Source: Rhodococcus oryzae
GTDB lineage: Bacteria > Actinomycetota > Actinomycetes > Mycobacteriales > Mycobacteriaceae
Assembly (NCBI RefSeq): GCF_005049235.1
Contig: NZ_SUMD01000004.1
Coordinates: 310,001 to 374,000 of the forward strand
Direction: 5' to 3'
DNA: 64,000 nucleotides
This document shows, one piece after another, positions 32,257-64,000 of this stretch. The notes beneath the pieces are model-generated. The model made no database searches and was not told the origin of the DNA. It was given only the letters and a program-made list of their open reading frames with translations. The stretch's first letter is position 1; each line of letters starts with the position of its first letter. The translations under genes were made by a program, and so were the position numbers.

Positions 32257-35200
32257 ATGACGACTACACCTTCGCAGGGGCCAGCCCAAGACCCTTACGG
32301 GCAATACACGGCATTTCCGCTGTCGGCAGTCCAACGGAGCATGTGGTTCGCACAGCAACTCAGCCCTACCGTCCCGGAATTCATCGCGCACTACATCGAA
32401 CTGCACGGCGACCTGGACCTCGAACTGCTCCGCCGGTCGGTCGATGCCACCGCGCTCGAGTTCGAATCCCCGATGCTGAAGATGGTGGACGTCGACGGCG
32501 AGCCGTATCAGGTGATCGACCCGAACTGCGACACCTCCACCGGATATATCGACTTCCGTGGGGAACCCGATCCGACCGCCGCCGCCCACGCATGGATCGA
32601 GGGGGAGTACACGACGCCGGTCGACCTTGCCCGTGACCGACTGATCGATACCTCCGTCCTCCAGGTCGGCGACCGAGATTACTTGTGGTACGCGCGAATT
32701 CACCATGTGGTCCTCGACGGTTACGGCGGTGCGACGCTGATCAACAGGATCGCGGCACACTACACGGCGGCGGTCAACGGCACCGAGCCGCCACCGAATC
32801 GCGCCCTGCCCGTGCGCGACCTCTACGACCTGGATCAGAAGTACCGCAGTTCCGACCGATTCACCGCGGACCGTGATTACTGGGCGGAACACATCGTCGG
32901 CATCGAGTCGGGTTCCACGCTGGCGCAACGGGAGGCAGCCGCGACCGCGCGTGTCTCGCTGGTGAGTGCTCGCCTGTCGGATGCGGGCCTGTCCGCACTG
33001 GAGGACTCGGACCACCGGGTCGGAGCGACCTCGGCCGCGGTGATCATCGCGGCCTTCGGCTGCTACCTCGGTCGGATGACAGGCGAGCGCGACCTCCTGA
33101 TCAACCTGCCCGTGTCCGGCCGGACGACGGCACAGTTGCAGCGATCCGGGGGCATGCTCGCCACCGTCGCGCCGCTGCACATCACGGTGGACGAAACCGA
33201 CACCGTGACCGAGCTCGTCGGGCGGGTCCAGCTCGAGCTCATGGGGGCACTTCGGCATCAGCGGTGCAGCGTCGAGGACATCCGCCGCGATGCCGGGCTG
33301 ACCGGCTCCTCGCGTGGGCTCGCGGGCCCGATGGTCAACGTCATGCTCTTCAACCAGGTGGTCACCCTCGGTCCCATCATCGGCGGCTATCACATCGTCA
33401 CCTCCGGACCCGTCGAGGACCTGCTGGTCAACATCTACAAGAGCGGTGCCGACGAGCGGACCCTCGTCGACTTCCGCGGCAACCCGAACCGATACGACGA
33501 CGACGAGCTGCGGACGCACCACGCCCAGTTCGTCGAGCTGCTAGAGGAGTTCCTGGCCGCCACACCGAGCACCCGGCTCGGCGACATCCACGCGACCAGC
33601 GCTGAGGCGGGCGTCCGCCAACGCAGGATCAACGAGGACCGCGCCTATTGGACCCGCGCACTCGCCCACCTGCCAACGGCCGCCGCGGTTCCCCTCGATC
33701 GTCCTCGGCCCGTACGGCAGTCGGGACCGACGGGGCACGTCGACATCGAGATCGACCGACGCATCCACCGCCGGATGGCAGACCTGGCCTGGCAGTCGGA
33801 CTCGAGCGTCTTCGCGGTGATGCACACCGCGCTCGCCGTATTGCTCGGCCGGCTCGCGGACACCGACGACGTCGCCCTCGGCACCGTGGTCAACCGCAGG
33901 CAGGCGACCGAGCCACCCGACACCGCCGACCCGGGCAACCCGGTGGTGTTGCGGAACACGGTCTCGGGGGCCTCCACGTTTACCGACCAGCTCGCCACCA
34001 TCCGGGATTCGGACCGGATAGCGCTGCGACACTCCGATCTTCCGTACGAGAAGGTCGTCGAGGGACTGGTCGCCGCTGCGGGTGGACCGATGGAACCGCC
34101 CTTCCGGGTCCTTTTCGAATTCGGGAACAAGGGCGACCCCGAATCCGGCCCGGACAGCCTGAGGATCGGGACGGGAGAGGTCGATGTCCGCCTCGTCTTC
34201 ACCGAACTGACCACCCACGCCGGGGAACCCGCGGGGATAGCGGGCCGCATCCTCTTCCAGACAGACCTTTACGACCGCACCACCATCGCCGAATTCGCGG
34301 ACCGGATCGACCGGATCCTGCAGAGCGCCACCGCCGACCCCGATCTGCCGGTCGGCGACATCAGACTCCTCGGACCGGCCGAGTTCGACTCCCTCACACC
34401 CGTCCAGGGCGCGCCAGGAGTCCCGCCACGGCCACTGCCCGACCTCCTCTCCGCGGCCGCCGCGATCGCACCCGACAACGACGCCATGAGGTTCGAGGGC
34501 ACCAGCCTGACCTATCGCGAACTCGACGATCGGTCCACCCAGCTGGCACGTCTGCTGATCGGTCGCGGGGTCGGCCCGGAATCCGTTGTCGCGCTGTCGA
34601 TCGTCAGGTCGATCGACTCGGTGCTCGCGCTGTGGGCGGTCGCCAAGACCGGCGCAGCCTTCGTGCCGATCGACCCCAACTATCCGCCGGACCGCATCGC
34701 GCACATGCTCACCGATTCCGGCGCGGTCCTCGGACTCGCCGCAGGCGACGGCGAACGGTCCGACACCACGCCGTGGCTGGATCTGCACGACCCCGAACTG
34801 GGTCGCCTGTGGTCCGCGCAGTCGACGGCGCCGATCGCCGATGCGGACCGCACCGGCCCACTGCGGATCGACCATGCGGCATACCTGATCTACACGTCCG
34901 GGTCGACCGGCCTGCCCAAGGGCGTTGTCGTCACCCACCGAGCCCTGGCGAACCTGGCCGCCGATGCTCGCGAGCGGTTCGCCGTCACGCCCGAATCGCG
35001 GACCCTGCACTTCAGCTCGCCCAGCTTCGACGCGTCGATCATGGAGCTGTTCATGACCGTCTGCGCCGGTGCGACGATGGTCATCGCCCCGTCCACTCTG
35101 TACGGCGGTGCCGAACTGGCCGAGTTGCTCAGCCGCGAGCGGGTCACGCACGCGTTCGTCATCCCGGCCGTACTCGCCTCGGTCGACCCGGCAGGACTCG

Positions 35201-63502: not shown

Positions 63503-64000
63503 GGTCCGGCCTGGTCCTGATGGTCGGTGTTCATCGACAGGCAACGTTTCATGGTGACGGCCTTGACCATCGTCTCCTCGTACTCCTCGTCCGGGTCGGA
63601 CATCGCCATGATCGCGCCACCCGCACCGAACGTCACCTCGTCGGCGGTGGCGACCAGGGTCCGGATCACGATGGAGAAGTCGGCGGTGCCGGTGAGCGAG
63701 AAGTACCCGATGGCACCCGAATAGACCCCGCGCGGGCCGTCCTCGAGCTTGTCTAGGATCTCGAGGGTGCGCACCTTCGGCGCCCCGGTCATCGATCCGC
63801 CGGGGAAGGTCGCCCGGATGCAGTCCACCACCGAGACACCCGGCCGCAGGGTGCCGCGGATGGTCGAGACCAGTTGGTGCACGGGCGCGTAGGTCTCGAC
63901 GTCGAACAGCTTCGGGACGTGCACCGAGCCAGGAACGCACACACGGGACAGGTCGTTGCGGACCAGGTCGACGATCATCAGGTTCTCGGCGCGATCCTTC
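63499..64000 (-). CDS. pabB: Aminodeoxychorismate synthase, chorismate-binding C-terminal part (cut by window end)
   Basis: At least 167 residues; the frame enters from the right edge (KDRAENLMIVDLVRNDLSRV). Motifs of PabB-type enzymes: MIVDLVRNDLSRVCVPGS, VHQLVSTIRGTL, CIRATFPGGSMTGAPK, VRTLEILDKLEDGPRG and YSGAIGYFS. The pattern matches PabAB fusions such as PapA and CmlB better than TrpE. It makes 4-amino-4-deoxychorismate from chorismate and glutamine. First visible gene of the operon with PapC and the N-oxygenase; whether a glutaminase half is fused cannot be seen. Confidence 0.85.
   Translation of the reverse strand, partial: KDRAENLMIVDLVRNDLSRVCVPGSVHVPKLFDVETYAPVHQLVSTIRGTLRPGVSVVDCIRATFPGGSMTGAPKVRTLEILDKLEDGPRGVYSGAIGYFSLTGTADFSIVIRTLVATADEVTFGAGGAIMAMSDPDEEYEETMVKAVTMKRCLSMNTDHQDQAGP

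Follow-up and report, generated by a model that had tools for sequence, protein, structure and literature searches.

A putative nitroaryl precursor operon beside a humimycin-type peptide synthetase in Rhodococcus oryzae

Bacterial routes to para-amino and para-nitro aromatic building blocks have been described for several antibiotics. In Pseudomonas fluorescens, the obafluorin genes obaDEF are read as sufficient for the production of 4-aminophenylpyruvate, and ObaC, a relative of the N-oxygenase AurF, is proposed to make 4-nitrophenylpyruvate; among the exogenous compounds named in that account, 4-nitrophenylpyruvate alone restored production to an obaC mutant (PMC5490192). The chloramphenicol, pristinamycin (cml, papABC) and corynecin pathways, cited in the same account for obaDEF, share the three functions of PapA, PapB and PapC. 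Here we describe an operon with these functions, papB-papA-papC-aurF, which overlaps the right edge of a 64,000-nucleotide stretch of Rhodococcus oryzae DNA (contig NZ_SUMD01000004.1, positions 310,001 to 374,000; hereafter the window) and lies beside a giant nonribosomal peptide synthetase (NRPS), here called NRPS1. What was observed is the set of genes, the families of their proteins, the diagnostic residues, the conserved linkage and the NRPS architecture; from these we infer the enzymatic steps, a nitro end state, use of the product by NRPS1 and the position of the aryl unit in the peptide. On balance, we consider that the operon probably supplies nitrophenylalanine, or aminophenylalanine, to NRPS1, a neighbouring synthetase of the humimycin lipopeptide type.

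Both halves of this locus have published counterparts. Humimycin A is Tyr-Ser-D-Tyr-Phe-D-Thr-Val-Val with a β-hydroxymyristoyl chain (PMC12024397, Table 1). Its NRPS is IupU of Rhodococcus equi, which has a C-starter domain; the humimycins were synthesised from the predicted product, with the comment that further modification of the natural compounds is possible, and the genes accompanying the NRPS include an amidohydrolase, an N-acyltransferase and MbtH (PMC5550956). In R. equi, iupU is REQ23810, and nearby are REQ23860 (chorismate mutase), REQ23850 (anthranilate synthase), REQ23840 (prephenate dehydrogenase) and REQ23830 (hypothetical), four genes described as conserved among environmental rhodococci (PMC2947987; Letek et al. 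2010). Mutants deleted for REQ23860 or REQ23850 grew less well in J774 macrophages, an effect reversed by complementation, and normally in broth (PMC2947987). The gene set is thus not undescribed, as the original prediction for this DNA had supposed, since PapABC with an AurF-type oxygenase is the published route to 4-nitrophenylpyruvate in obafluorin (PMC5490192), the four genes have been drawn in R. equi (PMC2947987) and humimycin-type NRPSs are published. As a set for para-amino and para-nitro chemistry it is already known from obafluorin and chloramphenicol.

Gene content and expected product of the operon

The operon is encoded on the minus strand and is complete just beyond the window, whose final base cuts papA; the DNA was additionally read for 52 kb past this edge (in a host genome of 5.37 Mb), and coordinates above 64000 continue the window numbering. 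It comprises papB (65589-65963, wholly outside the window; 124 residues), papA (63499-65583; 694 residues), papC (62546-63502; 318 residues) and aurF (61548-62549; 333 residues), with a gap of 5 bp between papB and papA followed by 4-bp overlaps at papA/papC and papC/aurF. Our gene calls thus agree with the three overlapping genes originally described, an aminodeoxychorismate synthase, a PapC-like dehydrogenase and an AurF-type oxygenase. The further expectation that a PapB-like mutase and an aminotransferase lay past the right edge held for the mutase; a Pfam scan of 18 genes between 66 and 88 kb, outside which a few small open reading frames fall, showed neither an aminotransferase nor the aryl-AMP ligase that the prediction had also proposed to look for.

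Each enzyme assignment is supported by diagnostic residues. PapA is a fused PabA-PabB protein whose best match in the PDB is 8hx6, labelled '4-amino-4-deoxychorismate synthase' (839 bits). Its homologues carry a PIKGT motif, which we take to be the signature of aminodeoxychorismate synthases, with the lysine kept in 57 of 58. PapC, like its Pfam and PDB matches, belongs to the prephenate dehydrogenase (TyrA) family, and its segment VGVNPMFAP aligns with LGLHPMFG of the solved T-protein 2pv7, so that Asn replaces the catalytic His; this substitution, already noticed in the original prediction, is found in all 65 sequences compared. PapB has the type-II chorismate mutase fold (Pfam CM_2) and scores 76.9 bits against TIGR01803 (CM-like; cut-off 73.35). 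Two of its acidic active-site positions, placed by eye and presumably equivalent to D48 and E52 in Escherichia coli numbering, are altered throughout, to Gln in 57 of 57 sequences and to Val, Met, Ile or Ala in 57 of 57. A PIKGT-bearing PapA, a CM_2-fold PapB with changed acidic positions and a TyrA-fold PapC without the usual His are the combination expected of PapABC; the motif, the Asn and an aminodeoxychorismate synthase as best match are not what ordinary anthranilate synthase and prephenate dehydrogenase would present.

The fourth gene encodes a putative di-iron N-oxygenase of the AurF/CmlI type, by its PDB and Pfam matches. Its best PDB match is 5hyg (250 bits, compared with 151 for AurF), an entry that the PDB listing calls only 'Uncharacterized protein' and that we take to be CmlI, which would be a likeness to the chloramphenicol set. 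Residues E109, E144, E205, H232, E236 and H239 are kept in 65 of 65 sequences and H147 in 64; from the alignment to AurF, these seven are presumed to be the metal ligands. The host has five more AurF-family genes (L001-L005), which score 334-371 bits against Pfam AurF, compared with 173 for the operon gene.

The operon need not serve primary metabolism, since the host genome carries one further CM_2 gene, one further PDH_N gene and three further chorismate-binding enzymes. From these assignments papB-papA-papC-aurF appears to be a dedicated precursor operon, which should give 4-nitrophenylpyruvate or 4-nitrophenylalanine; the para-amino/para-nitro chemistry suggested at the outset is thus supported by the enzymes and their diagnostic residues. 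In the pathway we propose, PapA would aminate chorismate to 4-amino-4-deoxychorismate, PapB would rearrange this to 4-amino-4-deoxyprephenate, and PapC would decarboxylate the latter oxidatively to 4-aminophenylpyruvate. A general cellular aminotransferase would convert the keto acid to the amino acid, and the CmlI/AurF-like enzyme would oxidise the aryl amino group, with nitro as the most likely end state, acting either at the pyruvate or amino-acid stage or on the finished peptide.

The organisation differs from that of the described systems. In obafluorin biosynthesis, obaCDEF likewise combine the 4-aminophenylpyruvate functions with an AurF-related oxygenase, but mutase and dehydrogenase are fused in obaF and the product feeds a β-lactone route with a bimodular NRPS. 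In contrast to the chloramphenicol and corynecin systems, the NRPS linked to the operon here is of the giant lipopeptide type. Outside the family, three AurF relatives (L197-L199) are ~43% identical, two of them (L198, L199) with a PapA-like gene bearing PIKGT nearby; these differ in that neither papB nor papC was recognised, and no giant NRPS was present, in the stretch read. They may resemble azoxymycin loci.

Peptide synthetases and their linkage to the operon

NRPS1 occupies 32257-59124 on the plus strand; its open reading frame opens at 32116/32200, and the ATG at 32257 is preferred as the start. From the translation, domain motifs and adenylation (A) domain codes, the order is C(starter-like)-A1-T, C-A2(Ser)-T, C-A3-T-E, C-A4-T, C-A5(Thr)-T-E, C-A6-T, C-A7-T-TE, where C is a condensation domain, T a carrier, E an epimerase and TE a thioesterase. 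At the N-terminus (32257-34500), where the domain matches are Condensation and AMP-binding, a nearly complete condensation domain, possibly of the starter kind, and the C-terminal portion of a second one precede A1. Modules 3 and 5 each end in an epimerase motif and the protein ends in a thioesterase motif, which gives the plan X-Ser-X(E)-X-Thr(E)-X-X-TE. The A-domain codes are DAMFLGGII (A1), DVWHFSLVD (A2), DALFVGGVV (A3), DAFFLGAI(V) (A4), DFWNIGMVH (A5), DGFFVGGI(M) (A6) and DAFFAAGIQ (A7), the bracketed last letters having been read by eye; by their codes A2 is assigned to Ser and A5 to Thr. With seven A domains and 2423 bp from its stop codon to that of the convergent aurF, NRPS1 is as originally described, a seven-module enzyme 2.4 kb away.

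By its module plan, NRPS1 matches the published humimycin type. The humimycin A synthetase IupU of R. equi and the humimycin B NRPS of R. erythropolis also have seven modules, with Ser at position 2, epimerised positions 3 and 5 and Thr at position 5, as judged by comparing NRPS1 with the printed peptide and the published descriptions of the enzymes. Among relatives of this type, the codes of modules 1, 3, 4, 6 and 7 vary, and the NRPS1 locus differs in having no MbtH gene; the published humimycins carry no para-nitrogen group. We propose that NRPS1 would incorporate the aryl unit as one or more aromatic-type residues of an N-acylated heptapeptide, X-Ser-D-X-X-D-Thr-X-X, the candidate sites being the unusual module 7 or, judged from the sequence of humimycin A, positions 1, 3 or 4. 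Where humimycin A has a predicted Val, the module 7 code here ends constantly in Gln: it is DAFFAAGIQ in six of six genomes of groups g1 and g10 and in G182, DAYFAGGIQ in all four g6 genomes read and DAFFIGGIQ in G020.

A second giant synthetase, NRPS2, lies beyond the window (87763-114639; L008/L009), so that the operon sits between the two. It is a seven-module paralogue of NRPS1 with epimerases at modules 3 and 5, it begins with the same arrangement of a nearly full condensation domain and the C-terminal part of a second one, and the thioesterases of the two share 61% identity. Rhodococcus maanshanensis, the nearest named relative found (N-oxygenase 89% identical), also has NRPS2 (90% identical). 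NRPS2 may also use this aryl building block.

How general is the association of operon and NRPS? A profile of the N-oxygenase found matches in 96 of 301 genomes and seven of 31 genera of the family at 1e-60, and in six of 394 sampled genomes of the class at 1e-70, three of them outside the family. Some of the groups into which the matches fall can be named from identical DNA in named genomes: g16 includes Antrihabitans, g6 Rhodococcoides kyotonense, g27 R. ruber, R. aetherivorans and R. coprophilus, and g9 Gordonia lacunae and G. namibiensis. Judged by gene order, g10 is probably the R. equi/Prescottella group, and parts of g23 are probably R. erythropolis-like or R. jostii-like. Linkage was counted in 64 loci, 60 of them chosen from the profile matches to span genera and four from named relatives of the window's genus, a set that is neither random nor independent. 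In 54 of these loci the operon, or its papC-aurF half, has an NRPS within ~10 kb, where NRPS means a called frame of more than 200 residues that matches an end of NRPS1, with edge pieces included (in G192 only short pieces are seen). The count becomes 55 if G218, whose aurF was missed by gene calling, is added. As background, 7.3% of the genome lies within ~10 kb of a condensation domain, a figure computed for the host genome alone. The loci counted as lacking an NRPS are four of g9, three of g23 and one each of g16, g10 and g6, one of which (G182) has the same seven-module NRPS ~17 kb away.

The linkage has outlasted considerable rearrangement. The NRPS lies on the aurF side in five g1 loci, ten g10 loci and 14 of the 15 NRPS-linked g23 loci, and on the papB side in all ten g27 loci, one g16 locus and one g23 locus. 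Of the 14 g6 loci, 12 show a split operon, with papC-aurF left on its own and an NRPS within 10 kb of it; in R. kyotonense (L020) this pair is located by the S10 ribosomal operon. The gene papA was found elsewhere in the genome in all seven g6 genomes searched, and the papB-papA half lies ~0.7-0.8 kb from an NRPS end in all six fetched. This second NRPS has the seven-module plan with Ser2, E3, Thr5 and E5, and occupies the rbpA place, in the four genomes read to depth, two of them with broken frames. The plan of NRPS1 recurs in g1 (the host, G001, G003), g10 (G152, G172, G014, G182) and g16 (G020, in two frames), and in a tree of A domains from these three groups modules 2, 3, 5, 6 and 7 each form one clade. 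In g23, R. erythropolis-like genomes (G084, G258, G221) have the whole operon beside an NRPS of several frames, located by the S10 operon in the two mapped gene by gene (L114, L116), and in four other genomes (G229, G237, G194, G052) the operon adjoins a nine-module NRPS that lacks a thioesterase motif at its end. The pairing of operon and NRPS is kept across several genera, and in several of them the NRPS has the humimycin plan; it is well supported by these sequence comparisons.

Neighbouring genes

The sole gene between NRPS1 and the operon is, as originally stated, a LuxR/LAL-type regulator (59121-61532, plus strand; Pfam GerE, 56 bits, with AAA and TPR matches). A tblastn search at 1e-10 found no match to it in the 75 loci compared, and its candidacy as a conserved cluster regulator was rejected on this ground. 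An Rfam scan of 59000-64000 gave no match. Upstream of NRPS1 (27109..31482) are chromosomal genes identified with Pfam as an amidohydrolase, an apolipoprotein N-acyltransferase, a glycosyltransferase of family 2 and rbpA; homologues of this block also border the operon and NRPS in R. ruber (L022). The amidohydrolase (Amidohydro_3) and acyltransferase (LNT_N) genes may be equivalent to the humimycin companions.

Beside papB lies a gene of metallo-β-lactamase fold (66193-66957), which was considered as a CmlA-like hydroxylase and rejected because its Pfam match is Lactamase_B_2; NCBIfam gives only a sub-threshold 'metal-dependent hydrolase'. Just upstream of NRPS2, a gene for a UvrA-like ABC protein occurs with two glyoxalase-type genes and an AraC-type regulator (83584-86055), and similar genes occur in L019; this group may possibly confer self-resistance, or be unrelated. 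Further from the operon, translations suggest a cobalamin-like gene set at 1-10576, with a precorrin methylase-like protein and a CobN-like protein of 1201 residues, and an adjacent pair of similar genes for secreted SGNH-type hydrolase-like proteins at 20533-22500.

Six g23 genomes have a second AurF-family gene in a compact, apparently biosynthetic cluster (L141-L146). Pfam identifies in L143 genes for a TauD-type oxygenase, a mandelate-racemase-like/GNAT fusion, a malate/lactate dehydrogenase-like protein, a FemAB-like protein, a class IV aminotransferase and, weakly, an ATP-grasp protein; a protein of 440 residues without a Pfam match looks radical-SAM-like by eye. A corynecin cluster was considered for this second gene and rejected, its neighbours being of a different kind.

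Competing explanations and significance

Several observations weigh against supply of the aryl unit to NRPS1. The two units are convergent and so do not form one transcript, and neither an aminotransferase nor MbtH is encoded among the scanned genes of the locus; MbtH, one of the genes that the original prediction had proposed to look for past the right edge, is present in two copies elsewhere in the genome. The NRPS1 codes could be aliphatic and are not diagnostic for nitro- or aminophenylalanine. In the A-domain tree the module 1 clade also holds module 1 of NRPS2 and module 4 of G020, module 4 is not separated from module 6, and no single clade common to all linked NRPSs was found that would pin down a nitroaryl module. 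Nor can NRPS1 be the only kind of consumer, since in g23 and g6 the operon, or one half of it, stands beside NRPSs of other designs and four g27 genomes have a six-module relative, with Ser2 and Thr kept and an epimerase after Thr only. None of the four Gordonia (g9) loci has an NRPS within 10 kb, NRPSs being elsewhere in each genome; one (G287) has just papC and aurF, and two further named Gordonia loci (L024, L027) likewise lack a nearby NRPS. Linkage elsewhere weakens the case for two unrelated units, yet these Gordonia operons speak for it. Finally, the published predictions for humimycin-type NRPSs are plain Tyr, Phe and Val, and synthetic humimycins without a nitro group are reported to be active.

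Could the operon instead make a free small molecule, such as an N-acyl p-nitrophenylserinol of the corynecin/chloramphenicol kind or another nitroaryl metabolite, with the NRPSs incidental? The NRPS-free Gordonia loci would fit this, and corynecins have been attributed to Rhodococcus, with antiSMASH corynecin calls of 100% for R. erythropolis and 40% for Prescottella R16 (PMC10819586, PMC10972888, PMC11433410, PMC9557007, PMC11563203). Linkage to giant NRPSs, however, is far above background and survives rearrangement, and there is no monomodular NRPS of the CmlP type, NRPS1 and NRPS2 being the only ones among A-domain frames of at least 900 residues in the 116 kb around the operon. The CmlA_N hydroxylase domain was found in none of 11 genomes including the host, a weak point since control genomes gave no match either. 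We consider a free product unlikely, while giving it real weight.

We give little credence to a redundant supply of aromatic amino acids through chorismate mutase, anthranilate synthase and prephenate dehydrogenase. This is the published reading of REQ23840-23860, it comes with a macrophage mutant phenotype (PMC2947987), and the Pfam families are indeed those of the same superfamilies. Against it stand the PIKGT lysine and best PDB match of PapA, the invariant Asn of PapC, the normal growth of the R. equi mutants in broth (PMC2947987) and the AurF-family gene through which the loci were found, for which a plain aromatic amino-acid locus would have no need. Very improbable, too, is a unit for folate or p-aminobenzoate synthesis, or one for detoxification that includes an AurF-type oxygenase, standing beside the NRPS through inherited neighbourhood alone. 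Aminodeoxychorismate is also the precursor of p-aminobenzoate, and both units are housed at a conserved chromosomal site, the rbpA region; but the scanned genes of the locus include no PabC-type lyase, PapB and PapC would divert the intermediate away from p-aminobenzoate, and inherited neighbourhood alone does not predict an exchange of sides or split halves that each lie by an NRPS.

We therefore return to an operon that feeds the humimycin-type NRPS1, and to what this might imply for R. equi. In seven of the 11 g10 loci (L069, L071, L073, L074, L076, L077, L083) the order is NRPS, one small gene, aurF, papC, papA, papB. This fits the published tags, and by gene order and tags the operon apparently corresponds to REQ23830-23860: in R. 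equi, too, the four genes follow one another in this order close to iupU, differing in their annotation as hypothetical protein, prephenate dehydrogenase, anthranilate synthase and chorismate mutase. No paper was found that links humimycin with these genes, or that joins Rhodococcus, 4-amino-4-deoxychorismate and an NRPS, in a search outside which most subscription papers lay. We put forward as a hypothesis, with good circumstantial support and with odds a little short of even, that the lipopeptides made by humimycin-type synthetases carry a nitroaryl (or aminoaryl) group, and that the aryl-precursor half of their pathway is what the R. equi macrophage genes encode. The synthetic humimycins may then lack the real aryl group.

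The humimycins are published antibiotics whose synthesis followed predicted NRPS sequences. Should a dedicated nitroaryl supply be part of their pathway, these predictions would leave out a defining group, and extracts could be examined for natural humimycins in the form of nitroaryl lipopeptides. The locus also offers an example of secondary metabolism hidden behind shikimate-type gene names, and gives a different and directly testable reading of the R. equi intracellular-growth locus. If this reading is correct, the operon would tie the intracellular-growth phenotype of R. equi to a nitroaryl natural product kept across the rhodococci.

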